DNA from: Rhynochetos jubatus
Taxonomy: Eukaryota; Chordata; Aves; Eurypygiformes; Rhynochetidae
Length of the DNA: 64,000 nt
Assembly (NCBI GenBank): GCA_027574665.1
Contig: CM050666.1
Span: forward strand, 992,001-1,056,000
Direction of reading: 5' to 3'
Below, piece by piece: positions 1-64,000 of this stretch. Every line of letters begins with the position of its first letter. Within the stretch, counting starts at the first letter, position 1. Both the position numbers and the translations under genes were made by a program. The notes under the pieces are model-generated. The model was given only the letters and a program-made list of their open reading frames with translations, ran no database searches and was not told the origin of the DNA.

Positions 1-166
1 CTCCCTTTTCCTCCAAAAGGGAAAGAGCTACGAGGGAATTTCTTAGCGAAACCTTGTTTGTTTTGGCAGAGCACTGCATGCCTCTTAAGACAGAGCTCTG
101 GATCCCCGGGAAAGTCGAAATCCACAGGGTCACCTTCTCTGTGCTAACAGGCTCGGAGAGGCTGGA
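1..166 (+). repeat. partial satellite monomer at left edge
   Basis: This is the last 166 bp (phases 307-472) of a monomer cut by the window edge. It begins inside the hairpin-bearing CTCCCTTTTCC segment and holds the third subrepeat, the CAGAGCTCTG palindrome, a GGATCC-type allele and a CENP-B-box-like motif at 104-120 on the minus strand. It matches the equivalent part of monomer 1 closely, so the array extends leftward. Confidence 0.97.
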
Positions 167-235
167 ATGCGCGGCTCGTTGAAGCGTCTGCCCGAACACG
201 GACATCTGAAGCAGCACTGTAATGCGACCAAACAG

Positions 236-364
236 AAAGAGTTAGGAGAGAATTTCTTGTCCCTTCTTGCTGCGCCTTTGCAGAGCACTGCGTGCCAGAG
301 CAGCCGGATCGCTGTGTTGCTTGCAATCTCCACTTCCAACAGTGCCACAGTTCCTCGGCAACAG
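236..364 (+). repeat. internal subrepeat A of the monomer (129 bp)
   Basis: Starts AAAGAGTTAGGAGAGAATT. It aligns without gaps to subrepeat C (494 onward) over 61 bp, with 43 identities by my count. The strongest parts are the first 23 bases and the shared CAGAGCACTGC block, which lies at offset 45 in both. The match supports an origin of the 472-bp monomer from a shorter ancestral unit. The same subrepeat recurs at every 472-bp step. Confidence 0.75.
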
Positions 365-493
365 AAAGAGCTAGGAAGGAATTGCTTACGCTGTTTTCTC
401 TCGCTGTGCTCTCGCAGTTCGTTCCCTTTTCGGCAGAGCGCGGGACCGCTTGCAAAGCTTAGAAACAAACCTCTCCCTTTTCCTCCAAAAGGG
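365..493 (+). repeat. internal subrepeat B of the monomer (129 bp)
   Basis: Starts AAAGAGCTAGGAAGGAATTG. Its first 24 bases match subrepeat C at 21 positions. The later CAGAGC block lies at offset 69 instead of 45, so B carries about 24 extra bases, or C and A lost them. The extra part is pyrimidine-rich (TTTTCTCTCGCTGTGCTCT). The start is exactly 129 bp after A and 129 bp before C. Confidence 0.7.
428..445 (+). other. second, imperfect CENP-B-box-like motif
   Basis: TTCGGCAGAGCGCGGG has TTCG, four bases, A, then three instead of two bases, then CGGG. All nine core bases exist but the spacing is one base too long. It recurs at phases 262-279. In monomers with the A allele at phase 277 (for example 15, 28, 37, 48, 52) CGGG becomes CGAG. 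The spacing error makes binding unlikely. Confidence 0.25.
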
Positions 494-494: not shown

Positions 495-562
495 AAGAGC
501 TACGAGGGAATTTCTTAGCGAAACCTTGTTTGTTTTGGCAGAGCACTGCATGCCTCTTAAGA

Positions 563-572: not shown

Positions 573-575
573 GAT

Positions 576-8300: not shown

Positions 8301-10549
8301 TTTGCAGAGCACTGCGTGCCAGAGCAGCCGGACCGCTGTGTTGCTTGCAATCTCCAGTTCCAACAGTGCCACAGTTCCTCGGCAACAGAAAGAGCTAGGA
8401 AGGAATTGCTTACGCTGTTTTCTCTCGCTGTGCTCTAGCAGTTCGTTCCCTTTTCGGCAGAGCGCGGGACCGCTTGCAAAGCTTAGAAACAAACCTCTCC
8501 CTTTTCCTCCAAAAGGGAAAGAGCTACGAGGGAATTTCTTAGCGAAACCTTGTTTGTTTTGGCAGAGCACTGCATGCCTCTGAAGACAGAGCTCTGTATC
8601 CCCGGGAAAGTCGAAATCCACAGGGTCACCTTCTCTGTGCTAACAGGCTCGGAGAGGCTGGAATGCGCGGCTCGTTGAAGCGTCTGCCCGAACACGGCCA
8701 TCTGAAGCAGCACTGTAATGCGACCAAAGAGAAAGAGTTAGGAGAGAATTTCTTGTCCCTTCTTGCTGCGCCTTTGCAGAGCACTGCGTGCCAGAGCAGC
8801 CGGAGCGCTGTGTTGCTTGCAATCTCCAGTTCCAACAGTGCCACAGTTCCTCGGCAACAGAAAGAGCTAGGAAGGAATTGCTTACGCTGTTTTCTCTCGC
8901 TGTGCTCTCGCAGTTCGTTCCCTTTTCGGCAGAGCGCGGGACCGCTTGCAAAGCTTAGAAACAAAGCTCTCCCTTTTCCTCCAAAAGGGAAAGAGCTACG
9001 AGGGAATTTCTTAGCGAAACCTTGTTTGTTTTGGCAGAGCACTGCATGCCTCTTAAGACAGAGCTCTGGATCCCCGGGAAAGTCGAAATCCACAGGGTCA
9101 CCTTCTCTGTGCTAACAGGCTCGGAGAGGCTCGAATGCGCGGCTCGTTGAAGCGTCTGCCCGAACACGGCCATCTGAAGCAGCACTGTAATGCGACCAAA
9201 CAGAAAGAGTTAGCAGAGAATTTCTTGTCCCTTCTTGCTGCGCCCTTGCAGAGCACTGCGTGCCAGAGCAGCCGGACCGCTGTGTTGCTTGCAATCTCCA
9301 GTTCCAACAGTGCCACAGTTCCTCGGCAACAGAAAGAGCTAGGAAGGAATTGCTTACGCTGTTTTCTCTCGCTGTGCTCTAGCAGTTCGTTCCCTTTTCG
9401 GCAGAGCGCGGGACCGCTTGCAAAGCTTAGAAACAAACCTCTCCCTTTTCCTCCAAAAGGGAAAGAGCTACGAGGGAATTTCTTAGCGAAACCTTGTTTG
9501 TTTTGGCAGAGCACTGCATGCCTCTTAAGACAGAGCTCTGGATCCCCGGGAAAGTCGAAATCCACAGGGTCACCTTCTCTGTGCTAACAGGCTCGGAGAG
9601 GCTCGAATGCGCGGCTCGTTGAAGCGTCTGCCCGAACACGGCCATCTGAAGCAGCAGTGTAATGCCACCAAACAGAAAGAGTTAGGAGAGAATTTCTTGT
9701 CCCTTCTTGCTGCGCCCTTGCAGAGCACTGCGTGCCAGAGCAGCCGGACCGCTGTGTTGCTTGCAATCTCCAGTTCCAACAGTGCCACAGTTCCTCGGCA
9801 ACAGAAAGAGCTAGGAAGGAATTGCTTACGCTGTTTTCTCTCGCTGTGCTCTAGCAGTTCGTTCCCTTTTCGGCAGAGCGCGGGACCGCTTGCAAAGCTT
9901 AGAAACAAACCTCTCCCTTTTCCTCCAAAAGGGAAAGAGCTACGAGGGAATTTCTTAGCGAAACCTTGTTTGTTTTGGCAGAGCACTGCATGCCTCTTAA
10001 GACAGAGCTCTGGATCCCCGGGAAAGTCGAAATCCACAGGGTCACCTTCTCTGTGCTAACAGGCTCGGAGAGGCTCGAATGCGCGGCTCGTTGAAGCGTC
10101 TGCCCGAACACGGCCATCTGAAGCAGCACTGTAATGCGACCAAACAGAAAGAGTTAGGAGAGAATTTCTTGTCCCTTCTTGCTGCGCCTTTGCAGAGCAC
10201 TGCGTGCCAGAGCAGCCGGTCGCTGTGTTGCTTGCAATCTCCAGTTCCAACAGTGCCACAGTTCCTCGGCAACAGAAAGAGCTAGGAAGGAATTGCTTAC
10301 GCTGTTTTCTCTCGCTGTGCTCTAGCAGTTCGTTCCCTTTTCGGCAGAGCGCGGGACCGCTTGCAAAGCTTAGAAACAAACCTCTCCCTTTTCCTCCAAA
10401 AGGGAAAGAGCTACGAGGGAATTTCTTAGCGAAACCTTGTTTGTTTTGGCAGAGCACTGCATGCCTCTTAAGACAGAGCTCTGTATCCCCGGGAAAGTCG
10501 AAATCCACAGGGTCACCTTCTCTGTGCTAACAGGCTCGGAGAGGCTCGA
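5359..10549 (+). repeat. array segment, monomers 12-22
   Basis: Mixed segment where the CCGAAG allele (phase 41 C) first appears. Monomer 12 carries the clustered TTAGGGAAACACTG change. Pairs 13-14 and 20-21 are TTAGCAG followed by CAGCAGTG monomers. Monomer 15 has GACTTCC and GCGCGAGACC, 16 has GAGGATTT with GGACTTGC, and 18 has CTCTGAAG. The order 13-14-15-16-17-18 is repeated at monomers 34-40 with one extra monomer (36) inserted, so whole units have been gained or lost. Monomers 19-21 repeat the order of 7-9. No gene is seen. Confidence 0.88.
10079..10549 (+). repeat. monomer 22, the only length variant (471 bp)
   Basis: One base is missing at 10219/10220, where CCGGATCGCTG or CCGGACCGCTG reads CCGGTCGCTG. 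Every other complete monomer in the window is exactly 472 bp, so downstream landmarks are shifted by one base relative to the left part. The deletion was not copied into any neighbour. It is therefore either very recent or a sequencing or assembly error. Confidence 0.9.
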
Positions 10550-13500
10550 ATGCGCGGCTCGTTGAAGCGTCTGCCCGAACACGGACATCCGAAGCAGCAC
10601 TGTAATGCGACCAAACAGAAAGAGTTAGGAGAGAATTTCTTGTCCCTTCTTGCTGCGCCTTTGCAGAGCACTGCGTGCCAGAGCAGCCGGACCGCTGTGT
10701 TGCTTGCAATCTCCAGTTCCAACAGTGCCACAGTTCCTCGGCAACAGAAAGAGCTAGGAAGGAATTGCTTACGCTGTTTTCTCTCGCTGTGCTCTAGCAG
10801 TTCGTTCCCTTTTCGGCAGAGCGCGGGACCGCTTGCAAAGCTTAGAAACAAACCTCTCCCTTTTCCTCCAAAAGGGAAAGAGCTACGAGGGAATTTCTTA
10901 GCGAAACCTTGTTTGTTTTGGCAGAGCACTGCATGCCTCTTAAGACAGAGCTCTGGATCCCCGGGAAAGTCGAAATCCAAAGGGTCACCTTCTCTGTGCT
11001 AACAGGCTCGGAGAGGCTGGAATGCGCGGCTCGTTGAAGCGTCTGCCCGAACACGGACATCTGAAGCAGCACTGTAATGCGACCAAACAGAAAGAGTTAG
11101 GAGAGAATTTCTTGTCCCTTCTTGCTGCGCCTTTGCAGAGCACTGCGTGCCAGAGCAGCCGGATCGCTGTGTTGCTTGCAATCTCCACTTCCAACAGTGC
11201 CACAGTTCCTCGGCAACAGAAAGAGCTAGGAAGGAATTGCTTACGCTGTTTTCTCTCGCTGTGCTCTCGCAGTTCGTTCCCTTTTCGGCAGAGCGCGGGA
11301 CCGCTTGCAAAGCTTAGAAACAAAGCTCTCCCTTTTCCTCCAAAAGGGAAAGAGCTACGAGGGAATTTCTTAGGGAAACACTGTTTGTTTTGGCAGAGCA
11401 CTGCATGCCTCTTAAGACAGAGCTCTGGATCCCCGGGAAAGTCGAAATCCACAGGGTCACCTTCTCTGTGCTAACAGGCTCGGAGAGGCTCGAATGCGCG
11501 GCTCGTTGAAGCGTCTGCCCGAACACGGACATCTGAAGCAGCACTGTAATGCGACCAAACAGAAAGAGTTAGCAGAGAATTTCTTGTCCCTTCTTGCTGC
11601 GCCCTTGCAGAGCACTGCGTGCCAGAGCAGCCGGACCGCTGTGTTGCTTGCAATCTCCAGTTCCAACAGTGCCACAGTTCCTCGGCAACAGAAAGAGCTA
11701 GGAAGGAATTGCTTACGCTGTTTTCTCTCGCTGTGCTCTAGCAGTTCGTTCCCTTTTCGGCAGAGCGCGGGACCGCTTGCAAAGCTTAGAAACAAACCTC
11801 TCCCTTTTCCTCCAAAAGGGAAAGAGCTACGAGGGAATTTCTTAGCGAAACCTTGTTTGTTTTGGCAGAGCACTGCATGCCTCTTAAGACAGAGCTCTGG
11901 ATCCCCGGGAAAGTCGAAATCCACAGGGTCACCTTCTCTGTGCTAACAGGCTCGGAGAGGCTCGAATGCGCGGCTCGTTGAAGCGTCTGCCCGAACACGG
12001 ACATCTGAAGCAGCAGTGTAATGCCACCAAACAGAAAGAGTTAGGAGAGAATTTCTTGTCCCTTCTTGCTGCGCCTTTGCAGAGCACTGCGTGCCAGAGC
12101 AGCCGGATCGCTGTGTTGCTTGCAATCTCCAGTTCCAACAGTGCCACAGTTCCTCGGCAACAGAAAGAGCTAGGAAGGAATTGCTTACGCTGTTTTCTCT
12201 CGCTGTGCTCTAGCAGTTCGTTCCCTTTTCGGCAGAGCGCGGGACCGCTTGCAAAGCTTAGAAACAAACCTCTCCCTTTTCCTCCAAAAGGGAAAGAGCT
12301 ACGAGGGAATTTCTTAGCGAAACCTTGTTTGTTTTGGCAGAGCACTGCATGCCTCTTAAGACAGAGCTCTGGATCCCCGGGAAAGTCGAAATCCACAGGG
12401 TCACCTTCTCTGTGCTAACAGGCTCGGAGAGGCTCGAATGCGCGGCTCGTTGAAGCGTCTGCCCGAACACGGACATCCGAAGCAGCACTGTAATGCGACC
12501 AAACAGAAAGAGTTAGGAGAGAATTTCTTGTCCCTTCTTGCTGCGCCTTTGCAGAGCACTGCGTGCCAGAGCAGCCGGATCGCTGTGTTGCTTGCAATCT
12601 CCAGTTCCAACAGTGCCACAGTTCCTCGGCAACAGAAAGAGCTAGGAAGGAATTGCTTACGCTGTTTTCTCTCGCTGTGCTCTAGCAGTTCGTTCCCTTT
12701 TCGGCAGAGCGCGGGACCGCTTGCAAAGCTTAGAAACAAACCTCTCCCTTTTCCTCCAAAAGGGAAAGAGCTACGAGGGAATTTCTTAGCGAAACCTTGT
12801 TTGTTTTGGCAGAGCACTGCATGCCTCTTAAGACAGAGCTCTGGATCCCCGGGAAAGTCGAAATCCACAGGGTCACCTTCTCTGTGCTAACAGGCTCGGA
12901 GAGGCTCGAATGCGCGGCTCGTTGAAGCGTCTGCCCGAACACGGACTTCCGAAGCAGCACTGTAATGCGACCAAACAGAAAGAGTTAGGAGAGAATTTCT
13001 TGTCCCTTCTTGCTGCGCCTTTGCAGAGCACTGCGTGCCAGAGCAGCCGGACCGCTGTGTTGCTTGCAATCTCCAGTTCCAACAGTGCCACAGTTCCTCG
13101 GCAACAGAAAGAGCTAGGAAGGAATTGCTTACGCTGTTTTCTCTCGCTGTGCTCTAGCAGTTCGTTCCCTTTTCGGCAGAGCGCGAGACCGCTTGCAAAG
13201 CTTAGAAACAAACCTCTCCCTTTTCCTCCAAAAGGGAAAGAGCTACGAGGGAATTTCTTAGCGAAACCTTGTTTGTTTTGGCAGAGCACTGCATGCCTCT
13301 TAAGACAGAGCTCTGGATCCCCGGGAAAGTCGAAATCCACAGGGTCACCTTCTCTGTGCTAACAGGCTCGGAGAGGCTGGAATGCGCGGCTCGTTGAAGC
13401 GTCTGCCCGAACACGGACATCCGAAGCAGCACTGTAATGCGACCAAACAGAAAGAGTTAGGAGAGAATTTCTTGTCCCTTCTTGCTGCGCCTTTGCAGAG

Positions 13501-16500
13501 CACTGCGTGCCAGAGCAGCCGGACCGCTGTGTTGCTTGCAATCTCCAGTTCCAACAGTGCCACAGTTCCTCGGCAACAGAAAGAGCTAGGAAGGAATTGC
13601 TTACGCTGTTTTCTCTCGCTGTGCTCTAGCAGTTCGTTCCCTTTTCGGCAGAGCGCGGGACCGCTTGCAAAGCTTAGAAACAAACCTCTCCCTTTTCCTC
13701 CAAAAGGGAAAGAGCTACGAGGGAATTTCTTAGCGAAACCTTGTTTGTTTTGGCAGAGCACTGCATGCCTCTGAAGACAGAGCTCTGGATCCCCGGGAAA
13801 GTCGAAATCCACAGGGTCACCTTCTCTGTGCTAACAGGCTCGGAGAGGCTCGAATGCGCGGCTCGTTGAAGCGTCTGCCCGAACACGGACATCCGAAGCA
13901 GCACTGTAATGCGACCAAACAGAAAGAGTTAGGAGAGAATTTCTTGTCCCTTCTTGCTGCGCCTTTGCAGAGCACTGCGTGCCAGAGCAGCCGGATCGCT
14001 GTGTTGCTTGCAATCTCCAGTTCCAACAGTGCCACAGTTCCTCGGCAACAGAAAGAGCTAGGAAGGAATTGCTTACGCTGTTTTCTCTCGCTGTGCTCTC
14101 GCAGTTCGTTCCCTTTTCGGCAGAGCGCGGGACCGCTTGCAAAGCTTAGAAACAAAGCTCTCCCTTTTCCTCCAAAAGGGAAAGAGCTACGAGGGAATTT
14201 CTTAGGGAAACACTGTTTGTTTTGGCAGAGCACTGCATGCCTCTTAAGACAGAGCTCTGGATCCCCGGGAAAGTCGAAATCCACAGGGTCACCTTCTCTG
14301 TGCTAACAGGCTCGGAGAGGCTCGAATGCGCGGCTCGTTGAAGCGTCTGCCCGAACACGGACATCTGAAGCAGCACTGTAATGCGACCAAACAGAAAGAG
14401 TTAGCAGAGAATTTCTTGTCCCTTCTTGCTGCGCCCTTGCAGAGCACTGCGTGCCAGAGCAGCCGGACCGCTGTGTTGCTTGCAATCTCCAGTTCCAACA
14501 GTGCCACAGTTCCTCGGCAACAGAAAGAGCTAGGAAGGAATTGCTTACGCTGTTTTCTCTCGCTGTGCTCTAGCAGTTCGTTCCCTTTTCGGCAGAGCGC
14601 GGGACCGCTTGCAAAGCTTAGAAACAAACCTCTCCCTTTTCCTCCAAAAGGGAAAGAGCTACGAGGGAATTTCTTAGCGAAACCTTGTTTGTTTTGGCAG
14701 AGCACTGCATGCCTCTTAAGACAGAGCTCTGGATCCCCGGGAAAGTCGAAATCCACAGGGTCACCTTCTCTGTGCTAACAGGCTCGGAGAGGCTCGAATG
14801 CGCGGCTCGTTGAAGCGTCTGCCCGAACACGGACATCTGAAGCAGCAGTGTAATGCCACCAAACAGAAAGAGTTAGGAGAGAATTTCTTGTCCCTTCTTG
14901 CTGCGCCTTTGCAGAGCACTGCGTGCCAGAGCAGCCGGATCGCTGTGTTGCTTGCAATCTCCAGTTCCAACAGTGCCACAGTTCCTCGGCAACAGAAAGA
15001 GCTAGGAAGGAATTGCTTGTGCTGTTTTGTCTCGCAGTGCTCTAGCAGTTCGTTCCCTTTTCGGCAGAGCGCGGGACCGCTTGCAAAGCTTAGAAACAAA
15101 CCTCTCCCTTTTCCTCCAAAAGGGAAAGAGCTACGAGGGAATTTCTTAGCGAAACCTTGTTTGTTTTGGCAGAGCACTGCATGCCTCTTAAGACAGAGCT
15201 CTGGATCCCCGGGAAAGTCGAAATCCACAGGGTCACCTTCTCTGTGCTAACAGGCTCGGAGAAGCTCGAATGCGCGGCTCGTTGAAGCGTCTGCCCGAAC
15301 ACGGACATCCGAAGCAGCACTGTAATGCGACCAAACAGAAAGAGTTAGGAGAGAATTTCTTGTCCCTTCTTGCTGCGCCTTTGCAGAGCACTGCGTGCCA
15401 GAGCAGCCGGACCGCTGTGTTGCTTGCAATCTCCAGTTCCAACAGTGCCACAGTTCCTCGGCAACAGAAAGAGCTAGGAAGGAATTGCTTACGCTGTTTT
15501 CTCTCGCTGTGCTCTAGCAGTTCGTTCCCTTTTCGGCAGAGCGCGGGACCGCTTGCAAAGCTTAGAAACAAACCTCTCCCTTTTCCTCCAAAAGGGAAAG
15601 AGCTACGAGGGAATTTCTTAGCGAAACCTTGTTTGTTTTGGCAGAGCACTGCATGCCTCTTAAGACAGAGCTCTGGATCCCCGGGAAAGTCGAAATCCAC
15701 AGGGTCACCTTCTCTGTGCTAACAGGCTCGGAGAGGCTCGAATGCGCGGCTCGTTGAAGCGTCTGCCCGAACACGGCCATCTGAAGCAGCACTGTAATGC
15801 GACCAAACAGAAAGAGTTAGCAGAGAATTTCTTGTCCCTTCTTGCTGCGCCCTTGCAGAGCACTGCGTGCCAGAGCAGCCGGACCGCTGTGTTGCTTGCA
15901 ATCTCCAGTTCCAACAGTGCCACAGTTCCTCGGCAACAGAAAGAGCTAGGAAGGAATTGCTTACGCTGTTTTCTCTCGCTGTGCTCTAGCAGTTCGTTCC
16001 CTTTTCGGCAGAGCGCGGGACCGCTTGCAAAGCTTAGAAACAAACCTCTCCCTTTTCCTCCAAAAGGGAAAGAGCTACGAGGGAATTTCTTAGCGAAACC
16101 TTGTTTGTTTTGGCAGAGCACTGCATGCCTCTTAAGACAGAGCTCTGGATCCCCGGGAAAGTCGAAATCCACAGGGTCACCTTCTCTGTGCTAACAGGCT
16201 CGGAGAGGCTCGAATGCGCGGCTCGTTGAAGCGTCTGCCCGAACACGGACATCTGAAGCAGCAGTGTAATGCCACCAAACAGAAAGAGTTAGGAGAGAAT
16301 TTCTTGTCCCTTCTTGCTGCGCCTTTGCAGAGCACTGCGTGCCAGAGCAGCCGGATCGCTGTGTTGCTTGCAATCTCCAGTTCCAACAGTGCCACAGTTC
16401 CTCGGCAACAGAAAGAGCTAGGAAGGAATTGCTTACGCTGTTTTCTCTCGCTGTGCTCTAGCAGTTCGTTCCCTTTTCGGCAGAGCGCGGGACCGCTTGC

Positions 16501-19500
16501 AAAGCTTAGAAACAAACCTCTCCCTTTTCCTCCAAAAGGGAAAGAGCTACGAGGGAATTTCTTAGCGAAACCTTGTTTGTTTTGGCAGAGCACTGCATGC
16601 CTCTTAAGACAGAGCTCTGGATCCCCGGGAAAGTCGAAATCCACAGGGTCACCTTCTCTGTGCTAACAGGCTCGGAGAGGCTCGAATGCGCGGCTCGTTG
16701 AAGCGTCTGCCCGAACACGGACATCCGAAGCAGCACTGTAATGCGACCAAACAGAAAGAGTTAGGAGAGAATTTCTTGTCCCTTCTTGCTGCGCCTTTGC
16801 AGAGCACTGCGTGCCAGAGCAGCCGGATCGCTGTGTTGCTTGCAATCTCCAGTTCCAACAGTGCCACAGTTCCTCGGCAACAGAAAGAGCTAGGAAGGAA
16901 TTGCTTACGCTGTTTTCTCTCGCTGTGCTCTAGCAGTTCGTTCCCTTTTCGGCAGAGCGCGGGACCGCTTGCAAAGCTTAGAAACAAACCTCTCCCTTTT
17001 CCTCCAAAAGGGAAAGAGCTACGAGGGAATTTCTTAGCGAAACCTTGTTTGTTTTGGCAGAGCACTGCATGCCTCTTAAGACAGAGCTCTGGATCCCCGG
17101 GAAAGTCGAAATCCACAGGGTCACCTTCTCTGTGCTAACAGGCTCGGAGAGGCTGGAATGCGCGGCTCGTTGAAGCGTCTGCCCGAACACGGACTTCCGA
17201 AGCAGCACTGTAATGCGACCAAACAGAAAGAGTTAGGAGAGAATTTCTTGTCCCTTCTTGCTGCGCCTTTGCAGAGCACTGCGTGCCAGAGCAGCCGGAC
17301 CGCTGTGTTGCTTGCAATCTCCAGTTCCAACAGTGCCACAGTTCCTCGGCAACAGAAAGAGCTAGGAAGGAATTGCTTACGCTGTTTTCTCTCGCTGTGC
17401 TCTAGCAGTTCGTTCCCTTTTCGGCAGAGCGCGAGACCGCTTGCAAAGCTTAGAAACAAACCTCTCCCTTTTCCTCCAAAAGGGAAAGAGCTACGAGGGA
17501 ATTTCTTAGCGAAACCTTGTTTGTTTTGGCAGAGCACTGCATGCCTCTTAAGACAGAGCTCTGGATCCCCGGGAAAGTCGAAATCCACAGGGTCACCTTC
17601 TCTGTGCTAACAGGCTCGGAGAGGCTGGAATGCGCGGCTCGTTGAAGCGTCTGCCCGAACACGGACATCCGAAGCAGCACTGTAATGCGACCAAACAGAA
17701 AGAGTTAGGAGAGGATTTCTTGTCCCTTCTTGCTGCGCCTTTGCAGAGCACTGCGTGCCAGAGCAGCCGGACCGCTGTGTTGCTTGCAATCTCCAGTTCC
17801 AACAGTGCCACAGTTCCTCGGCAACAGAAAGAGCTAGGAAGGACTTGCTTACGCTGTTTTCTCTCGCTGTGCTCTAGCAGTTCGTTCCCTTTTCGGCAGA
17901 GCGCGGGACCGCTTGCAAAGCTTAGAAACAAACCTCTCCCTTTTCCTCCAAAAGGGAAAGAGCTACGAGGGAATTTCTTAGGGAAACCTTGTTTGTTTTG
18001 GCAGAGCACTGCATGCCTCTTAAGACAGAGCTCTGGATCCCCGGGAAAGTCGAAATCCACAGGGTCACCTTCTCTGTGCTAACAGGCTCGGAGAGGCTGG
18101 AATGCGCGGCTCGTTGAAGCGTCTGCCCGAACACGGACATCCGAAGCAGCACTGTAATGCGACCAAACAGAAAGAGTTAGGAGAGAATTTCTTGTCCCTT
18201 CTTGCTGCGCCTTTGCAGAGCACTGCGTGCCAGAGCAGCCGGATCGCTGTGTTGCTTGCAATCTCCAGTTCCAACAGTGCCACAGTTCCTCGGCAACAGA
18301 AAGAGCTAGGAAGGAATTGCTTACGCTGTTTTCTCTCGCTGTGCTCTAGCAGTTCGTTCCCTTTTCGGCAGAGCGCGGGACCGCTTGCAAAGCTTAGAAA
18401 CAAACCTCTCCCTTTTCCTCCAAAAGGGAAAGAGCTACGAGGGAATTTCTTAGCGAAACCTTGTTTGTTTTGGCAGAGCACTGCATGCCTCTTAAGACAG
18501 AGCTCTGTATCACCGGGAAAGTCGAAATCCACAGGGTCACCTTCTCTGTGCTAACAGGCTCGGAGAGGCTCGAATGCGCGGCTCGTTGAAGCGTCTGCCC
18601 GAACACGGACATCCGAAGCAGCACTGTAATGCGACCAAACAGAAAGAGTTAGGAGAGAATTTCTTGTCCCTTCTTGCTGCGCCTTTGCAGAGCACTGCGT
18701 GCCAGAGCAGCCGGACCGCTGTGTTGCTTGCAATCTCCAGTTCCAACAGTGCCACAGTTCCTCGGCAACAGAAAGAGCTAGGAAGGAATTGCTTACGCTG
18801 TTTTCTCTCGCTGTGCTCTAGCAGTTCGTTCCCTTTTCGGCAGAGCGCGGGACCGCTTGCAAAGCTTAGAAACAAACCTCTCCCTTTTCCTCCAAAAGGG
18901 AAAGAGCTACGAGGGAATTTCTTAGCGAAACCTTGTTTGTTTTGGCAGAGCACTGCATGCCTCTGAAGACAGAGCTCTGGATCCCCGGGAAAGTCGAAAT
19001 CCACAGGGTCACCTTCTCTGTGCTAACAGGCTCGGAGAGGCTCGAATGCGCGGCTCGTTGAAGCGTCTGCCCGAACACGGACATCCGAAGCAGCACTGTA
19101 ATGCGACCAAACAGAAAGAGTTAGGAGAGAATTTCTTGTCCCTTCTTGCTGCGCCTTTGCAGAGCACTGCGTGCCAGAGCAGCCGGATCGCTGTGTTGCT
19201 TGCAATCTCCAGTTCCAACAGTGCCACAGTTCCTCGGCAACAGAAAGAGCTAGGAAGGAATTGCTTACGCTGTTTTCTCTCGCTGTGCTCTCGCAGTTCG
19301 TTCCCTTTTCGGCAGAGCGCGGGACCGCTTGCAAAGCTTAGAAACAAAGCTCTCCCTTTTCCTCCAAAAGGGAAAGAGCTACGAGGGAATTTCTTAGGGA
19401 AACACTGTTTGTTTTGGCAGAGCACTGCATGCCTCTTAAGACAGAGCTCTGGATCCCCGGGAAAGTCGAAATCCACAGGGTCACCTTCTCTGTGCTAACA

Positions 19501-52085: not shown

Positions 52086-55000
52086 ATGCGCGGCTCGTTG
52101 AAGCGTCTGCCCGAACACGGCCATCCGAAGCAGCACTGTAATGCGACCAAACAGAAAGAGTTAGGAGAGGATTTCTTGTCCCTTCTTGCTGCGCCCTTGC
52201 AGAGCACTGCGTACCAGAGCAGCCGGATCGCTGTCGTGCTTGCAATCTCCAGTTCCAACAGTGCCACAGTTCCTCGGCAACAGAAAGAGCTAGGAAGGAA
52301 TTGCTTACGCTGTTTTCTCTCGCTGTGCTCTAGCAGTTCGTTCCCTTTTCGGCAGAGCGCGGGACCGCTTGCAAAGCTTAGAAACAAACCTCTCCCTTTT
52401 CCTCCAAAAGGGAAAGAGCTACGAGGGAATTTCTTAGCGAAACCTTGTTTGTTTTGGCAGAGCACTGCATGCCTCTTAAGACAGAGCTCTGGATCCCCGG
52501 GAAAGTCGAAATCCACAGGGTCACCTTCTCTGTGCTAACAGGCTCGGAGAGGCTCGAATGCGCGGCTCGTTGAAGCGTCTGCCCGAACACGGACATCCGA
52601 AGCAGCACTGTAATGCGACCAAACAGAAAGAGTTAGGAGAGGATTTCTTGTCCCTTCTTGCTGCGCCCTTGCAGAGCACTGCGTGCCAGAGCAGCCGGAC
52701 CGCTGTGTTGCTTGCAATCTCCAGTTCCAACAGTGCCACAGTTCCTCGGCAACAGAAAGAGCTAGGAAGGAATTGCTTACGCTGTTTTCTCTCGCAGTGC
52801 TCTAGCAGTTCGTTCCCTTTTCGGCAGAGCGCGGGACCGCTTGCAAAGCTTAGAAACAAACCTCTCCCTTTTCCTCCAAAAGGGAAAGAGCTACGAGGGA
52901 ATTTCTTAGCGAAACCTTGTTTGTTTTGGCAGAGCACTGCATGCCTCTTAAGACAGAGCTCTGTATCCCCGGGAAAGTCAAAATCCACAGGGTCACCTTC
53001 TCTGTGCTAACAGGCTCGGAGAGGCTCGAATGCGCGGCTCGTTGAAGCGTCTGCCCGAACACGGCCATCCGAAGCAGCACTGTAATGCGACCAAACAGAA
53101 AGAGTTAGGAGAGGATTTCTTGTCCCTTCTTGCTGCGCCCTTGCAGAGCACTGCGTACCAGAGCAGCCGGATCGCTGTCGTGCTTGCAATCTCCAGTTCC
53201 AACAGTGCCACAGTTCCTCGGCAACAGAAAGAGCTAGGAAGGAATTGCTTACGCTGTTTTCTCTCGCTGTGCTCCAGCAGTTCGTTCCCTTTTCGGCAGA
53301 GCGCGGGACCGCTTGCAAAGCTTAGAAACAAACCTCTCCCTTTTCCTCCAAAAGGGAAAGAGCTACGAGGGAATTTCTTAGCGAAACCTTGTTTGTTTTG
53401 GCAGAGCACTGCATGCCTCTTAAGACAGAGCTCTCTATCCCCGGGAAAGTCGAAATCCACAGGGTCACCTTCTCTGTGCTAACAGGCTCGGAGAGGCTGG
53501 AATGCGCGGCTCGTTGAAGCGTCTGCCCGAACACGGACATCCGAAGCAGCACTGTAATGCGACCAAACAGAAAGAGTTAGGAGAGGATTTCTTGTCCCTT
53601 CTTGCTGCGCCCTTGCAGAGCACTGCGTGCCAGAGCAGCCGGATCGCTGTCGTGCTTGCAATCTCCAGTTCCAACAGTGCCACAGTTCCTCGGCAACAGA
53701 AAGAGCTAGGAAGGAATTGCTTACGCTGTTTTCTCTCGCTGTGCTCTAGCAGTTCGTTCCCTTTTCGGCAGAGCGCGGGACCGCTTGCAAAGCTTAGAAA
53801 CAAACCTCTCCCTTTTCCTCCAAAAGGGAAAGAGCTACGAGGGAATTTCTTAGCGAAACCTTGTTTGTTTTGGCAGAGCACTGCATGCCTCTTAAGACAG
53901 AGCTCTGTATCCCCGGGAAAGTCGAAATCCACAGGGTCACCTTCTCTGTGCTAACAGGCTCGGAGAGGCTGGAATGCGCGGCTCCTTGAAGCGTCTGCCC
54001 GAACACGGACATCCGAAGCAGCACTGTAATGCGACCAAACAGAAAGAGTTAGGAGAGAATTTCTTGTCCCTTCTTGCTGCGCCTTTGCAGAGCACTGCGT
54101 GCCAGAGCAGCCGGATCGCTGTGTTGCTTGCAATCTCCAGTTCCAACAGTGCCACAGTTCCTCGGCAACAGAAAGAGCTAGGAAGGAATTGCTTACGCTG
54201 TTTTCTCTCGCTGTGCTCTAGCAGTTCGTTCCCTTTTCGGCAGAGCGCGGGACCGCTTGCAAAGCTTAGAAACAAACCTCTCCCTTTTCCTCCAAAAGGG
54301 AAAGAGCTACGAGGGAATTTCTTAGCGAAACCTTGTTTGTTTTGGCAGAGCACTGCATGCCTCTTAAGACAGAGCTCTGGATCCCCGGGAAAGTCGAAAT
54401 CCACAGGGTCACCTTCTCTGTGCTAACAGGCTCGGAGAGGCTGGAATGCGCGGCTCGTTGAAGCGTCTGCCCGAACACGGACATCCGAAGCAGCACTGTA
54501 ATGCGACCAAACAGAAAGAGTTAGGAGAGAATTTCTTGTCCCTTCTTGCTGCGCCTTTGCAGAGCACTGCGTGCCAGAGCAGCCGGATCGCTGTGTTGCT
54601 TGCAATCTCCAGTTCCAACAGTGCCACAGTTCCTCGGCAACAGAAAGAGCTAGGAAGGAATTGCTTACGCTGTTTTCTCTCGCTGTGCTCTAGCAGTTCG
54701 TTCCCTTTTCGGCAGAGCGCGGGACCGCTTGCAAAGCTTAGAAACAAACCTCTCCCTTTTCCTCCAAAAGGGAAAGAGCTACGAGGGAATTTCTTAGCGA
54801 AACCTTGTTTGTTTTGGCAGAGCACTGCATGCCTCTTAAGACAGAGCTCTGGATCCCCGGGAAAGTCGAAATCCACAGGGTCACCTTCTCTGTGCTAACA
54901 GGCTCGGAGAGGCTCGAATGCGCGGCTCGTTGAAGCGTCTGCCCGAACACGGACATCCGAAGCAGCACTGTAATGCGACCAAACAGAAAGAGTTAGGAGA

Positions 55001-58000
55001 GGATTTCTTGTCCCTTCTTGCTGCGCCTTTGCAGAGCACTGCGTGCCAGAGCAGCCGGACCGCTGTGTTGCTTGCAATCTCCAGTTCCAACAGTGCCACA
55101 GTTCCTCGGCAACAGAAAGAGCTAGGAAGGAATTGCTTACGCTGTTTTCTCTCGCTGTGCTCTAGCAGTTCGTTCCCTTTTCGGCAGAGCGCGGGACCGC
55201 TTGCAAAGCTTAGAAACAAACCTCTCCCTTTTCCTCCAAAAGGGAAAGAGCTACGAGGGAATTTCTTAGCGAAACCTTGTTTGTTTTGGCAGAGCACTGC
55301 ATGCCTCTTAAGACAGAGCTCTGTATCCCCGGGAAAGTCGAAATCCACAGGGTCACCTTCTCTGTGCTAACAGGCTCGGAGAGGCTGGAATGCGCGGCTC
55401 GTTGAAGCGTCTGCCCGAACACGGACATCCGAAGCAGCACTGTAATGCGACCAAACAGAAAGAGTTAGGAGAGAATTTCTTGTCCCTTCTTGCTGCGCCT
55501 TTGCAGAGCACTGCGTGCCAGAGCAGCCGGACCGCTGTGTTGCTTGCAATCTCCAGTTCCAACAGTGCCACAGTTCCTCGGCAACAGAAAGAGCTAGGAA
55601 GGAATTGCTTACGCTGTTTTCTCTCGCTGTGCTCTAGCAGTTCGTTCCCTTTTCGGCAGAGCGCGGGACCGCTTGCAAAGCTTAGAAACAAACCTCTCCC
55701 TTTTCCTCCAAAAGGGAAAGAGCTACGAGGGAATTTCTTAGCGAAACCTTGTTTGTTTTGGCAGAGCACTGCATGCCTCTTAAGACAGAGCTCTGTATCC
55801 CCGGGAAAGTCGAAATCCACAGGGTCACCTTCTCTGTGCTAACAGGCTCGGAGAGGCTCGAATGCGCGGCTCGTTGAAGCGTCTGCCCGAACACGGACAT
55901 CCGAAACAGCACTGTAATGCGACCAAACAGAAAGAGTTAGGAGAGAATTTCTTGTCCCTTCTTGCTGCGCCTTTGCAGAGCACTGCGTGCCAGAGCAGCC
56001 GGACCGCTGTGTTGCTTGCAATCTCCAGTTCCAACAGTGCCACAGTTCCTCGGCAACAGAAAGAGCTAGGAAGGAATTGCTTACGCTGTTTTCTCTCGCA
56101 GTGCTCTAGCAGTTCGTTCCCTTTTCGGCAGAGCGCGGGACCGCTTGCAAAGCTTAGAAACAAACCTCTCCCTTTTCCTCCAAAAGGGAAAGAGCTACGA
56201 GGGAATTTCTTAGCGAAACCTTGTTTGTTTTGGCAGAGCACTGCATGCCTCTTAAGACAGAGCTCTGTATCCCCGGGAAAGTCAAAATCCACAGGGTCAC
56301 CTTCTCTGTGCTAACAGGCTCGGAGAGGCTCGAATGCGCGGCTCGTTGAAGCGTCTGCCCGAACACGGCCATCCGAAGCAGCACTGTAATGCGACCAAAC
56401 AGAAAGAGTTAGGAGAGGATTTCTTGTCCCTTCTTGCTGCGCCCTTGCAGAGCACTGCGTACCAGAGCAGCCGGATCGCTGTCGTGCTTGCAATCTCCAG
56501 TTCCAACAGTGCCACAGTTCCTCGGCAACAGAAAGAGCTAGGAAGGAATTGCTTACGCTGTTTTCTCTCGCTGTGCTCCAGCAGTTCGTTCCCTTTTCGG
56601 CAGAGCGCGGGACCGCTTGCAAAGCTTAGAAACAAACCTCTCCCTTTTCCTCCAAAAGGGAAAGAGCTACGAGGGAATTTCTTAGCGAAACCTTGTTTGT
56701 TTTGGCAGAGCACTGCATGCCTCTTAAGACAGAGCTCTGGATCCCCGGGAAAGTCGAAATCCACAGGGTCACCTTCTCTGTGCTAACAGGCTCGGAGAGG
56801 CTCGAATGCGCGGCTCGTTGAAGCGTCTGCCCGAACACGGACATCCGAAGCAGCACTGTAATGCGACCAAACAGAAAGAGTTAGGAGAGGATTTCTTGTC
56901 CCTTCTTGCTGCGCCCTTGCAGAGCACTGCGTGCCAGAGCAGCCGGACCGCTGTGTTGCTTGCAATCTCCAGTTCCAACAGTGCCACAGTTCCTCGGCAA
57001 CAGAAAGAGCTAGGAAGGAATTGCTTACGCTGTTTTCTCTCGCAGTGCTCTAGCAGTTCGTTCCCTTTTCGGCAGAGCGCGGGACCGCTTGCAAAGCTTA
57101 GAAACAAACCTCTCCCTTTTCCTCCAAAAGGGAAAGAGCTACGAGGGAATTTCTTAGCGAAACCTTGTTTGTTTTGGCAGAGCACTGCATGCCTCTTAAG
57201 ACAGAGCTCTGTATCCCCGGGAAAGTCAAAATCCACAGGGTCACCTTCTCTGTGCTAACAGGCTCGGAGAGGCTCGAATGCGCGGCTCGTTGAAGCGTCT
57301 GCCCGAACACGGCCATCCGAAGCAGCACTGTAATGCGACCAAACAGAAAGAGTTAGGAGAGGATTTCTTGTCCCTTCTTGCTGCGCCCTTGCAGAGCACT
57401 GCGTACCAGAGCAGCCGGATCGCTGTCGTGCTTGCAATCTCCAGTTCCAACAGTGCCACAGTTCCTCGGCAACAGAAAGAGCTAGGAAGGAATTGCTTAC
57501 GCTGTTTTCTCTCGCTGTGCTCCAGCAGTTCGTTCCCTTTTCGGCAGAGCGCGGGACCGCTTGCAAAGCTTAGAAACAAACCTCTCCCTTTTCCTCCAAA
57601 AGGGAAAGAGCTACGAGGGAATTTCTTAGCGAAACCTTGTTTGTTTTGGCAGAGCACTGCATGCCTCTTAAGACAGAGCTCTCTATCCCCGGGAAAGTCG
57701 AAATCCACAGGGTCACCTTCTCTGTGCTAACAGGCTCGGAGAGGCTGGAATGCGCGGCTCGTTGAAGCGTCTGCCCGAACACGGACATCCGAAGCAGCAC
57801 TGTAATGCGACCAAACAGAAAGAGTTAGGAGAGGATTTCTTGTCCCTTCTTGCTGCGCCCTTGCAGAGCACTGCGTGCCAGAGCAGCCGGATCGCTGTCG
57901 TGCTTGCAATCTCCAGTTCCAACAGTGCCACAGTTCCTCGGCAACAGAAAGAGCTAGGAAGGAATTGCTTACGCTGTTTTCTCTCGCTGTGCTCTAGCAG

Positions 58001-60109
58001 TTCGTTCCCTTTTCGGCAGAGCGCGGGACCGCTTGCAAAGCTTAGAAACAAACCTCTCCCTTTTCCTCCAAAAGGGAAAGAGCTACGAGGGAATTTCTTA
58101 GCGAAACCTTGTTTGTTTTGGCAGAGCACTGCATGCCTCTTAAGACAGAGCTCTGTATCCCCGGGAAAGTCGAAATCCACAGGGTCACCTTCTCTGTGCT
58201 AACAGGCTCGGAGAGGCTGGAATGCGCGGCTCCTTGAAGCGTCTGCCCGAACACGGACATCCGAAGCAGCACTGTAATGCGACCAAACAGAAAGAGTTAG
58301 GAGAGAATTTCTTGTCCCTTCTTGCTGCGCCTTTGCAGAGCACTGCGTGCCAGAGCAGCCGGATCGCTGTGTTGCTTGCAATCTCCAGTTCCAACAGTGC
58401 CACAGTTCCTCGGCAACAGAAAGAGCTAGGAAGGAATTGCTTACGCTGTTTTCTCTCGCTGTGCTCTCGCAGTTCGTTCCCTTTTCGGCAGAGCGCGGGA
58501 CCGCTTGCAAAGCTTAGAAACAAACCTCTCCCTTTTCCTCCAAAAGGGAAAGAGCTACGAGGGAATTTCTTAGCGAAACCTTGTTTGTTTTGGCAGAGCA
58601 CTGCATGCCTCTTAAGACAGAGCTCTGGATCCCCGGGAAAGTCGAAATCCACAGGGTCACCTTCTCTGTGCTAACAGGCTCGGAGAGGCTGGAATGCGCG
58701 GCTCGTTGAAGCGTCTGCCCGAACACGGACATCCGAAGCAGCACTGTAATGCGACCAAACAGAAAGAGTTAGGAGAGAATTTCTTGTCCCTTCTTGCTGC
58801 GCCTTTGCAGAGCACTGCGTGCCAGAGCAGCCGGATCGCTGTGTTGCTTGCAATCTCCAGTTCCAACAGTGCCACAGTTCCTCGGCAACAGAAAGAGCTA
58901 GGAAGGAATTGCTTACGCTGTTTTCTCTCGCTGTGCTCTAGCAGTTCGTTCCCTTTTCGGCAGAGCGCGGGACCGCTTGCAAAGCTTAGAAACAAACCTC
59001 TCCCTTTTCCTCCAAAAGGGAAAGAGCTACGAGGGAATTTCTTAGCGAAACCTTGTTTGTTTTGGCAGAGCACTGCATGCCTCTTAAGACAGAGCTCTGG
59101 ATCCCCGGGAAAGTCGAAATCCACAGGGTCACCTTCTCTGTGCTAACAGGCTCGGAGAGGCTCGAATGCGCGGCTCGTTGAAGCGTCTGCCCGAACACGG
59201 ACATCCGAAGCAGCACTGTAATGCGACCAAACAGAAAGAGTTAGGAGAGGATTTCTTGTCCCTTCTTGCTGCGCCTTTGCAGAGCACTGCGTGCCAGAGC
59301 AGCCGGACCGCTGTGTTGCTTGCAATCTCCAGTTCCAACAGTGCCACAGTTCCTCGGCAACAGAAAGAGCTAGGAAGGAATTGCTTACGCTGTTTTCTCT
59401 CGCTGTGCTCTAGCAGTTCGTTCCCTTTTCGGCAGAGCGCGGGACCGCTTGCAAAGCTTAGAAACAAACCTCTCCCTTTTCCTCCAAAAGGGAAAGAGCT
59501 ACGAGGGAATTTCTTAGCGAAACCTTGTTTGTTTTGGCAGAGCACTGCATGCCTCTTAAGACAGAGCTCTGTATCCCCGGGAAAGTCGAAATCCACAGGG
59601 TCACCTTCTCTGTGCTAACAGGCTCGGAGAGGCTGGAATGCGCGGCTCGTTGAAGCGTCTGCCCGAACACGGACATCCGAAGCAGCACTGTAATGCGACC
59701 AAACAGAAAGAGTTAGGAGAGAATTTCTTGTCCCTTCTTGCTGCGCCTTTGCAGAGCACTGCGTGCCAGAGCAGCCGGACCGCTGTGTTGCTTGCAATCT
59801 CCAGTTCCAACAGTGCCACAGTTCCTCGGCAACAGAAAGAGCTAGGAAGGAATTGCTTACGCTGTTTTCTCTCGCTGTGCTCTAGCAGTTCGTTCCCTTT
59901 TCGGCAGAGCGCGGGACCGCTTGCAAAGCTTAGAAACAAACCTCTCCCTTTTCCTCCAAAAGGGAAAGAGCTACGAGGGAATTTCTTAGCGAAACCTTGT
60001 TTGTTTTGGCAGAGCACTGCATGCCTCTTAAGACAGAGCTCTGTATCCCCGGGAAAGTCAAAATCCACAGGGTCACCTTCTCTGTGCTAACAGGCTCGGA
60101 GAGGCTGGA
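52086..60109 (+). repeat. 9-monomer-spaced duplication, 4248 bp (111-118 and 120-127)
   Basis: Monomers 111-118 (52086-55861) recur as 120-127 (56334-60109). Rare shared marks are GCGTACCAG (111, 113, 120, 122), CTCTCTATCC (113, 122), GGCTCCTTG (115, 124) and CGCAGTGC with GTCAAAATCC (112, 121). Monomer 119 sits between and also has CGCAGTGC with GTCAAAATCC, so a shorter unit was probably shuffled as well. Differences include TCGCAG in 124 only, CTCCAGCAG in 120 but not 111, and GTCAAAATCC in 127 but not 118. Confidence 0.85.
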
Positions 60110-63100
60110 ATGCGCGGCTCGTTGAAGCGTCTGCCCGAACACGGACATCCGAAGCAGCACTGTAATGCGACCAAACAGAAAGAGTTAGGAGAGAATTTCT
60201 TGTCCCTTCTTGCTGCGCCTTTGCAGAGCACTGCGTGCCAGAGCAGCCGGACCGCTGTGTTGCTTGCAATCTCCAGTTCCAACAGTGCCACAGTTCCTCG
60301 GCAACAGAAAGAGCTAGGAAGGAATTGCTTACGCTGTTTTCTCTCGCTGTGCTCTAGCAGTTCGTTCCCTTTTCGGCAGAGCGCGGGACCGCTTGCAAAG
60401 CTTAGAAACAAAGCTCTCCCTTTTCCTCCAAAAGGGAAAGAGCTACGAGGGAATTTCTTAGCGAAACCTTGTTTGTTTTGGCAGAGCACTGCATGCCTCT
60501 TAAGACAGAGCTCTGTATCCCCGGGAAAGTCGAAATCCACAGGGTCACCTTCTCTGTGCTAACAGGCTCGGAGAGGCTGGAATGCGCGGCTCGTTGAAGC
60601 GTCTGCCCGAACACGGACATCCGAAGCAGCACTGTAATGCGACCAAACAGAAAGAGTTAGGAGAGAATTTCTTGTCCCTTCTTGCTGCGCCTTTGCAGAG
60701 CACTGCGTGCCAGAGCAGCCGGACCGCTGTGTTGCTTGCAATCTCCAGTTCCAACAGTGCCACAGTTCCTCGGCAACAGAAAGAGCTAGGAAGGAATTGC
60801 TTACGCTGTTTTCTCTCGCTGTGCTCTAGCAGTTCGTTCCCTTTTCGGCAGAGTGCGGGACCGCTTGCAAAGCTTAGAAACAAACCTCTCCCTTTTCCTC
60901 CAAAAGGGAAAGAGCTACGAGGGAATTTCTTAGCGAAACCTTGTTTGTTTTGGCAGAGCACTGCATGCCTCTTAAGAGAGAGCTCTGGATACCCGGGAAA
61001 GTCGAAATCCACAGGGTCACCTTCTCTGTGCTAACAGGCTCGGAGAGGCTCGAATGCGCGGCTCGTTGAAGCGTCTGCCCGAACACGGACATCCGAAGCA
61101 GCACTGTAATGCGACCAAACAGAAAGAGTTAGGAGAGGATTTCTTGTCCCTTCTTGCTGCGCCCTTGCAGAGCACTGCGTGCCAGAGCAGCCGGACCGCT
61201 GTGTTGCTTGCAATCTCCAGTTCCAACAGTGCCACAGTTCCTCGGCAACAGAAAGAGCTAGGAAGGAATTGCTTACGCTGTTTTCTCTCGCTGTGCTCTA
61301 GCAGTTCGTTCCCTTTTCGGCAGAGCGCGGGACCGCTTGCAAAGCTCAGAAACAAACCTCTCCCTTTTCCTCCAAAAGGGAAAGAGCTACGAGGGAATTT
61401 CTTAGCGAAACCTTGTTTGTTTTGGCAGAGCACTGCATGCCTCTTAAGACAGAGCTCTGGATCCCCGGGAAAGTCGAAATCCACAGGGTCACCTTCTCTG
61501 TGCTAACAGGCTCGGAGAGGCTGGAATGCGCGGCTCGTTGAAGCGTCTGCCCGAACACGGACATCCGAAGCAGCACTGTAATGCGACCAAACAGAAAGAG
61601 TTAGGAGAGAATTTCTTGTCCTTTCTTGCTGCGCCTTTGCAGAGCACTGCGTGCCAGAGCAGCCGGATCGCTGTCGTGCTTGCAATCTCCAGTTCCAACA
61701 GTGCCACAGTTCCTCGGCAACAGAAAGAGCTAGGAAGGAATTGCTTACGCTGTTTTCTCTCGCTGTGCTCTAGCAGTTCGTTCCCTTTTCGGCAGAGCGC
61801 GGGACCGCTTGCAAAGCTTAGAAACAAACCTCTCCCTTTTCCTCCAAAAGGGAAAGAGCTACGAGGGAATTTCTTAGCGAAACCTTGTTTGTTTTGGCAG
61901 AGCACTGCATGCCTCTTAAGACAGAGCTCTGGATCCCCGGGAAAGTCGAAATCCACAGGGTCACCTTCTCTGTGCTAACAGGCTCGGAGAGGCTCGAATG
62001 CGCGGCTCGTTGAAGCGTCTGCCCGAACACGGACATCCGAAGCAGCACTGTAATGCGACCAAAGAGAAAGAGTTAGGAGAGGATTTCTTGTCCCTTCTTG
62101 CTGCGCCCTTGCAGAGCACTGCGTGCCAGAGCAGCCGGACCGCTGTGTTGCTTGCAATCTCCAGTTCCAACAGTGCCACAGTTCCTCGGCAACAGAAAGA
62201 GCTAGGAAGGAATTGCTTACGCTGTTTTCTCTCGCTGTGCTCTAGCAGTTCGTTCCCTTTTCGGCAGAGCGCGGGACCGCTTGCAAAGCTTAGAAACAAA
62301 CCTCTCCCTTTTCCTCCAAAAGGGAAAGAGCTACGAGGGAATTTCTTAGCGAAACCTTGTTTGTTTTGGCAGAGCACTGCATGCCTCTTAAGACAGAGCT
62401 CTGGATCCCCGGGAAAGTCGAAATCCACAGGGTCACCTTCTCTGTGCTAACAGGCTCGGAGAGGCTGGAATGCGCGGCTCGTTGAAGCGTCTGCCCGAAC
62501 ACGGACATCCGAAGCAGCACTGTAATGCGACCAAACAGAAAGAGTTAGGAGAGAATTTCTTGTCCCTTCTTGCTGCGCCTTTGCAGAGCACTGCGTGCCA
62601 GAGCAGCCGGACCGCTGTGTTGCTTGCAATCTCCAGTTCCAACAGTGCCACAGTTCCTCGGCAACAGAAAGAGCTAGGAAGGAATTGCTTACGCTGTTTT
62701 CTCTCGCTGTGCTCTAGCAGTTCGTTCCCTTTTCGGCAGAGCGCGGGACCGCTTGCAAAGCTTAGAAACAAACCTCTCCCTTTTCCTCCAAAAGGGAAAG
62801 AGCTACGAGGGAATTTCTTAGCGAAACCTTGTTTGTTTTGGCAGAGCACTGCATGCCTCTTAAGACAGAGCTCTGGATCCCCGGGAAAGTCGAAATCCAC
62901 AGGGTCACCTTCTCTGTGCTAACAGGCTCGGAGAGGCTGGAATGCGCGGCTCGTTGAAGCGTCTGCCCGAACACGGACATCCGAAGCAGCACTGTAATGC
63001 GACCAAACAGAAAGAGTTAGGAGAGAATTTCTTGTCCCTTCTTGCTGCGCCTTTGCAGAGCACTGCGTGCCAGAGCAGCCGGATCGCTGTGTTGCTTGCA

Positions 63101-63885
63101 ATCTCCAGTTCCAACAGTGCCACAGTTCCTCGGCAACAGAAAGAGCTAGGAAGGAATTGCTTACGCTGTTTTCTCTCGCTGTGCTCTAGCAGTTCGTTCC
63201 CTTTTCGGCAGAGCGCGGGACCGCTTGCAAAGCTTAGAAACAAACCTCTCCCTTTTCCTCCAAAAGGGAAAGAGCTACGAGGGAATTTCTTAGCGAAACC
63301 TTGTTTGTTTTGGCAGAGCACTGCATGCCTCTTAAGACAGAGCTCTGGATCCCCGGGAAAGTCGAAATCCACAGGGTCACCTTCTCTGTGCTAACAGGCT
63401 CGGAGAGGCTCGAATGCGCGGCTCGTTGAAGCGTCTGCCCGAACACGGACATCCGAAGCAGCACTGTAATGCGACCAAACAGAAAGAGTTAGGAGAGGAT
63501 TTCTTGTCCCTTCTTGCTGCGCCTTTGCAGAGCACTGCGTGCCAGAGCAGCCGGACCGCTGTGTTGCTTGCAATCTCCAGTTCCAACAGTGCCACAGTTC
63601 CTCGGCAACAGAAAGAGCTAGGAAGGAATTGCTTACGCTGTTTTCTCTCGCTGTGCTCTAGCAGTTCGTTCCCTTTTCGGCAGAGCGCGGGACCGCTTGC
63701 AAAGCTTAGAAACAAACCTCTCCCTTTTCCTCCAAAAGGGAAAGAGCTACGAGGGAATTTCTTAGCGAAACCTTGTTTGTTTTGGCAGAGCACTGCATGC
63801 CTCTTAAGACAGAGCTCTGTATCCCCGGGAAAGTCGAAATCCACAGGGTCACCTTCTCTGTGCTAACAGGCTCGGAGAGGCTGGA
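60110..63885 (+). repeat. array segment, monomers 128-135, near-copy of 102-109
   Basis: Eight monomers repeating the haplotype order of 47838-51613 with about three substitutions noted in 3776 bp. The copy may extend leftward into monomers 101/127, which both end with GTCAAAATCC, and rightward into partial monomer 136, which matches 110 over its visible 115 bp. Monomer 130 shares AAGCTCAG with 85 and 90 rather than with 104, so later conversion or a different donor is possible. No gene is seen. Confidence 0.83.
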
Positions 63886-64000
63886 ATGCGCGGCTCGTTG
63901 AAGCGTCTGCCCGAACACGGACATCCGAAGCAGCACTGTAATGCGACCAAACAGAAAGAGTTAGGAGAGAATTTCTTGTCCCTTCTTGCTGCGCCTTTGC
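63886..64000 (+). repeat. partial satellite monomer at right edge
   Basis: The first 115 bp (phases 1-115) of monomer 136, cut by the window edge inside subrepeat A. It carries the right-family alleles GACATCCGAAG, AAACAG and GAGAATTT. There is no sign of an array boundary, so the satellite continues to the right. Confidence 0.97.

Follow-up and report, generated by a model that had tools for sequence, protein, structure and literature searches.

What kind of sequence fills 64 kb of a bird chromosome with a single repeat unit, and why does that unit hardly ever change its length? In this study, we analysed a stretch of 64,000 bases from Rhynochetos jubatus (992001-1056000 of contig CM050666.1, here C21; referred to as the window). 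The assembly totals 1.331 Gb and is divided into 148 contigs, and C21 comprises 18,041,197 bases (18.04 Mb). The window probably lies inside a centromere-type satellite array that belongs to an acrocentric bird chromosome. The array is an ordinary kind of sequence, and selection on the length of its unit is not supported. A first-pass annotation, which was made from the letters alone, had described the window as at least 64 kb of a 472-bp satellite with one exception to the period, and had proposed a check with Tandem Repeats Finder (TRF). That run returned a single row (positions 1-64000, period 472, 135.6 copies, 98% matches, 0% indels), with 472 as the sole period when periods of up to 500 were allowed, and tracking the phase along the window revealed one phase change only; the annotated periodicity was thus confirmed. 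As a long head-to-tail array of one unit, the stretch is satellite DNA. Its G+C content was 52.7% by base counts (A+T 47.3%), and 83 of the 135 full units were distinct, with a mean distance of 0.80% to the consensus and of 1.28% between pairs. The substitutions amounted to 55 variants at 54 sites, the indel not being counted. The array and its only length change within the window are as follows:

1-64000, plus strand: 472-bp satellite array, 135 full units and a part, interior of an array of about 1.08 Mb (TRF, genome position, sampled extent)
10219-10220, plus strand: sole indel, a 1-bp deletion between these two bases at unit position 308 of unit 22 (phase tracking, alignment)

The array reaches well beyond the window, and the annotated minimum of 64 kb was therefore correct. 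Its borders on C21 were placed at 153,078 and 1,228,283, with one orientation wherever sampled; this extent was obtained by sampling (20 stretches, finer samples and two border stretches) and not by continuous reading. Satellite made up 98-100% of the 14 samples at 200 to 1,200 kb, and none was present in those at 1, 100, 1,300, 1,400, 1,600 and 2,000 kb. Degenerate TAACCC repeats were observed at approximately 1,232,870-1,233,040, 4.6-4.8 kb past the right border. The age of the array was compared using 272 full units, 25 of which were thinned from the window (samples L003-L005 and L051-L065 were left out). The within-sample mean distance on C21 was 1.5-3.4% at 200-500 kb and 0.7-1.5% at 600-1,200 kb; at the right edge, at 1,228 kb, it was 2.0% (four units), and beyond the border two stretches with an identity of 68.1% and 69.5% reach 1,228,821. 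The array therefore has the young core and older flanks of a centromeric satellite, with an overlap on the right side of the core. The sampling shows that the middle of the array, including the window, underwent the most recent expansion or homogenisation. Units on its left are older and more diverse and include length variants and higher-order repeats, and the right edge of the array holds divergent copies.

Outside the window, 19 of the 179 start-to-start spacings on C21 departed from 472, i.e., 272 (seven), 471 (nine), 470 (two) and 467 (one); a further spacing of 699, which leads from the right border into degenerate copies, was excluded from the 179, and all of the spacing counts leave out samples L051-L065. 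On other contigs, six of 83 spacings were not 472, although eight of the loci behind them had been chosen as best matches to the query and two loci (L003 and L004) overlap, and hence they are no fair sample. The 272-bp unit consists of unit positions 1-136, about 23 unmatched bases and positions 360-472. In the 400- and 500-kb samples, copies of it follow one, two or four full units and form higher-order repeats, e.g., 472+472+272 (about 1,216 bp), at 400-406 and 500-506 kb of C21, where a recurrent multi-unit period, the mark of a higher-order array, was thus found. Moreover, a 2,688-base stretch in the first of these samples (C21:400,001-406,000) has an identical copy 103,312 bp away in the second (C21:500,001-506,000), so that either a large segment was duplicated recently or a super higher-order repeat is present.

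As far as can be judged from the sequence, the position near contig ends, the age layers and the nearby telomere-like repeats are consistent with the centromere or pericentromere of an acrocentric bird chromosome. Chicken acrocentric centromeres are reported to consist of the CNM repeat, which has a unit of 41 bp, extends over 0.2-0.8 Mb and is often organised in higher-order repeats; the centromere cores often contain telomeric sequence (PMC9974502). Compared with that description, the array on C21 is alike in its place near a chromosome end, its large tandem array, its higher-order repeats and the telomere-like sequence close by, but it differs in its 472-bp unit with 129-bp subrepeats (described below) as opposed to 41 bp and in its size of about 1.08 Mb as opposed to 0.2-0.8 Mb. 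Identity with the CNM repeat itself was rejected, because no unit of 41-42 bp appeared either among the strongest internal lags (129 and 258) or in the TRF result (472 only). A similar position would also be expected of pericentromeric or subtelomeric heterochromatin that has no kinetochore function, with the centromere core located in other sequence. The array starts 153 kb from the end of C21, the satellite was sampled approximately 225-232 kb from the end of contig C11, and it reaches the end of contig C31; chicken and thrush satellites are reported to be pericentromeric as well (PMC9974502, PMC11375038). Nevertheless, we consider such heterochromatin unlikely, as the opposite end of C21 (18,039,001-18,041,197) has a different repeat of 176 bp with embedded TTAGGG, and the 6-kb samples at 1.3, 1.4, 1.6 and 2.0 Mb were free of the satellite, with no array detected by TRF at 1.3 Mb, which holds for those samples alone. 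For the centromere-type array that we favour, it is only its position which suggests that it may carry the kinetochore or the flanking heterochromatin.

Several observations speak against a centromere. The first 10 kb of C21 contained neither the satellite nor a telomere array, and the assembled short arm may therefore lack sequence or be misjoined. With 1.52% and 1.51%, the samples at 1,150 and 1,200 kb equalled the one at 300 kb (1.52%), and thus core and flank overlap, the age difference being blurred on the right side of the core. The best match to the core of the CENP-B box in the consensus had one mismatch, which was equalled by 10% of 300 shuffles, and the strand folding of one unit was unremarkable (z -0.45). 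Finally, among the matches listed, with 39 of 153 candidates scored, the family was found on five contigs besides C21 (C10, C11, C31, C69 and C146), and an array on every chromosome would therefore be a conjecture.

Inside the window, the units were copied in blocks. The longest exact repeats measured 3,941 bp (lag of eight units), 2,441 bp (lag of 11) and 1,888 bp (lag of nine), whereas shuffling the variant columns (50 trials) gave a longest run of 777 on average and 928 at most. The blocks are located as follows (all from the exact-repeat scan):

31622-35562, plus strand: exact 3,941-bp repeat, first copy, lag of eight units
35398-39338, plus strand: exact 3,941-bp repeat, second copy
13380-15820, plus strand: exact 2,441-bp repeat, first copy, lag of 11 units
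18572-21012, plus strand: exact 2,441-bp repeat, second copy
52332-64000, plus strand: patchy nine-unit (4,248-bp) periodicity, lag-9 exact runs of 1,888, 1,591 and 1,284 bp

The nine-unit periodicity in the last 12 kb is perhaps a starting higher-order repeat; no single higher-order period spanning the whole window was found, only the eight-, nine- and 11-unit blocks. Among the 23 sites with a minor count of at least five, site 246 of one unit was linked with site 217 of the next (r2 0.87), the mean r2 decreased from 0.049 below 100 bp to 0.009-0.018 at 1 to 2.6 kb, and all four variant combinations occurred in 117 of the 253 site pairs. Adjacent units differed by 1.16% on average, and with a lag of 60 units the mean distance was only slightly higher (1.35%). 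Unequal exchange is indicated by the exact multi-unit copies and by the linkage between neighbouring units, and the array thus turns over by unequal exchange or conversion of such multi-unit blocks. At unit positions 316-317, two adjacent substitutions were always paired (ten of the 135 units), which is a doublet mutation that was spread by exchange. A uniform array could also be produced by the assembly, if a repeat were wrongly collapsed or expanded and evened out by the averaging of reads. The satellite at the end of C31 and at both ends of C10 and C69 indicates that the assembly breaks within it, and the two identical 2,688-bp stretches that lie 103 kb from each other may result from a false expansion. 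An artefact is, however, highly improbable given the 83 distinct units among 135, the block copies and the divergence that is graded along the array.

Regarding the constant length of the unit, the first-pass annotation had offered two readings, of which very rapid homogenisation was supported by the exact copies (the longest of 3,941 bp), the cross-border linkage and the low divergence of the core. The other one, that selection maintains a length of 472 bp so that nucleosomes or the kinetochore are phased, could appeal to the one indel among the 135 units of the window, to the fact that 160 of the 179 spacings in other parts of the array are exactly 472 and to the low probability of so few indels. 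For 54 variable sites, the probability of at most one indel was 0.001 at six substitutions per indel, 0.009 at eight and 0.029 at ten, and it rose to 0.06 at 12, 0.10 at 14 and 0.25 at 20, these ratios being assumed and not taken from the source genome. We regard such selection as very unlikely, because 19 of the 179 spacings are off 472 and the 272-bp units recur in the higher-order repeats of the same array, which means that variant lengths are tolerated and multiplied. Moreover, off-length units were rarer in the window than elsewhere, as is expected for a locally homogenised stretch: one of 135 compared to 19 of 179 in the rest of C21 (Fisher P 0.0002) and, marginally, to six of 119 in the core samples alone (P 0.053), both tests treating units as independent, which they are not. 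Since the array has other unit lengths elsewhere, the evenness of the window is a property of a young, homogenised core, and it appears to reflect recent copying in this part of the array. A constant unit length across a 64-kb sample thus carries little information on selection. The suggestion that 472 bp is a nucleosome-related length is likewise unnecessary, as the number can be obtained without nucleosomes from the architecture of the unit (3 x 129 + 85 = 472).

This architecture is itself repetitive: the 472-bp unit is made of three degenerate 129-bp subrepeats and an unrelated 85-bp spacer, which lie in the first unit as follows:

16-144, plus strand: subrepeat C, 129 bp (alignment against shuffles)
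145-229, plus strand: spacer, 85 bp, without detected similarity to the subrepeats (shuffle test)
230-358, plus strand: subrepeat A, 129 bp (alignment against shuffles)
359-487, plus strand: subrepeat B, 129 bp, crosses the unit border (alignment against shuffles)

The three subrepeats aligned with scores of 61-68 compared to at most 35 in 200 shuffles each, and they share a start resembling GAAAGAGYTAGGAGGGAATTTCTTA. The spacer was unlike all three (P 0.33, 0.92 and 0.79 against 500 shuffles), and the strongest internal lags of the unit were 129 (and 343) and 258 (and 214). The unit may have originated from three copies of an older repeat of about 129 bp together with an 85-bp spacer; the likeness is observed, and from it we infer the order of events. 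An invariant run of 47 bp (334-380), the longest in the unit, was within chance (P 0.14). The matches of other motifs to the consensus, judged against 300 shuffles, were not taken as evidence: the full CENP-B box had four mismatches (equalled by 3% of the shuffles), pJ-alpha four (4%) and a CTCF-like motif three (35%). In the first 3,000 bases, each unit repeats reading frames of 150 and 155 codons, which overlap on both strands and were not taken as genes.

Comparison with known satellites gave no identity. Primate alpha satellite has a 171-bp unit, a CENP-B box, higher-order repeats and a young core with older flanks; by description, the C21 array has the higher-order repeats and the young core with older flanks in common with it, but differs in the unit length and the CENP-B box. 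Assignment to the CENP-B box satellites, such as alpha satellite, was rejected, the best core match to the motif having one mismatch. In birds, a study of thrushes describes TleSat01-1220 of Turdus leucomelas, with a length of 1,220 bp and 48% A+T, at all centromeres by fluorescence in situ hybridisation (FISH) in two species, and gives GenBank accessions OR675141-OR675150 for ten thrush satellites (PMC11375038). Its length is close to that of the 472+472+272 repeat of C21 (1,220 and about 1,216 bp) and so is its A+T content (48% and 47.3%). This likeness concerns length and composition only and may serve as a lead, chance being possible. The 191-bp candidate centromeric satellite of the monk parakeet, which was reportedly validated by FISH (PMC8854603), is also a bird centromeric satellite, but by description its unit length differs from 472 bp. 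Centromeric repeats are also reported for the nightingale, with neither unit length nor sequence in the available text (PMC8687609). Our literature search found no satellite that could be matched to the 472-bp unit; a Tanacetum paper among its hits (PMC6532368) contains the figure 472 bp. One unit had no match in the plasmid and phage collections, one 27-base and one 22-base piece of it had no exact match in the IMG/VR and GTDB genomes, and Rfam returned nothing for the first 1,500 bases of the window at E values of up to 1.

The relatives on other contigs are close. Measured from the second part of the window, the distance was 1.2-1.7% to the C21 core and 1.2-1.9% to C10, C31, C69 and the inner part of C146, compared to 2.3% at 200 kb of C21 and 2.6% at the start of C146. 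This low distance between contigs suggests homogenisation across chromosomes or a recent common origin of the arrays, and the family may have become common to several contigs through exchange between chromosomes or through such an origin. On C31 (7,286,684 bases), the satellite is present from 6.80 Mb or earlier, as shown by samples at 6.80, 7.00 and 7.036 Mb and by the stretch between 7.275 Mb and the last base, with none in the first 2 kb; on C11 (34,938,080 bases), it was sampled at 34.706-34.710 and 34.711-34.713 Mb, which is the above-mentioned 225-232 kb from the end. C146 (1,182,500 bases) has it in the first 3 kb and at 100, 300, 400 and 600 kb, with none at 800 kb, 1 Mb or in the last 3 kb, and C10 (237,250 bases) and C69 (131,392 bases) have it at both ends. 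In the three large contigs, C21, C11 and C31, the array is therefore close to a contig end, lying toward the right end on the minus strand in C11 and C31 and toward the left end on the plus strand in C21. This placement gives the same direction toward the long arm in three of three large contigs, which is a small number, with C146 not orientable. For a small chromosome, both borders, the age layers and the subrepeat origin of a satellite array are thus in hand, together with a length variant that is built into higher-order repeats and a family that is common to several chromosomes.

The substitutions themselves showed an uneven spectrum. Changes between C and G accounted for 17 of the 55 window variants (P 0.00002 against an assumed share of 10% and P 0.011 against an assumed 17.6%, the share at equal rates). 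Over the 272 units, they made up 29 of the 111 variants seen at least twice and 45 of 236 (19%) when single ones were included, and in the core 31 of 108; the share was thus 26-31% in the window, in the core and among the variants seen repeatedly. The ratio of transitions to transversions over the 272 units was 0.95 with or without single variants, i.e., without an excess of transitions. The CpG observed/expected ratio of the consensus was 0.79. C>T or G>A changes at CpG and at other C/G sites numbered ten and 19 in the core (254 units) and 24 and 19 among the 50 units of the left flank, which corresponds to a per-site CpG excess of 2.1 times compared to 5.0 times, although the contrast was not significant (Fisher P 0.095). 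The same counts were zero and four at the right edge (five units), which departs from the flank pattern, zero and two in C31, zero and one in C10, two and six in C69, and five and six in C146. It is a tentative and rather doubtful idea that the young core is kept unmethylated in the germ line, like an active kinetochore site, in a way that is readable from mutations alone; if true, the position of the kinetochore could be mapped from the assembled sequence without chromatin data. The lower CpG excess of the core could alternatively stem from GC-biased conversion.

As for the surroundings of the array, a reading frame at 2.0 Mb of C21, to which Pfam assigned no family, is presumably CR1-like and, together with the genome size and the small chromosome, indicates a bird. 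On its left, the array is adjoined by a tandem repeat with a period of about 4,063 bp, in which two fragments of a forkhead gene occur (Pfam Forkhead); we take this gene to be FOXJ1-like, and a literature search on FOXJ1 tandem copies with bird centromeres found nothing. Two copies of this repeat within 7 kb beside the array were 98-100% identical in eight of 11 windows of 300 bp. All four 1-kb samples at 115, 125, 135 and 145 kb, taken from the stretch C21:115,001-153,077, matched this repeat: those at 125 and 135 kb over the full length with 98.9-100% identity, those at 115 and 145 kb piecewise with 81-99%.

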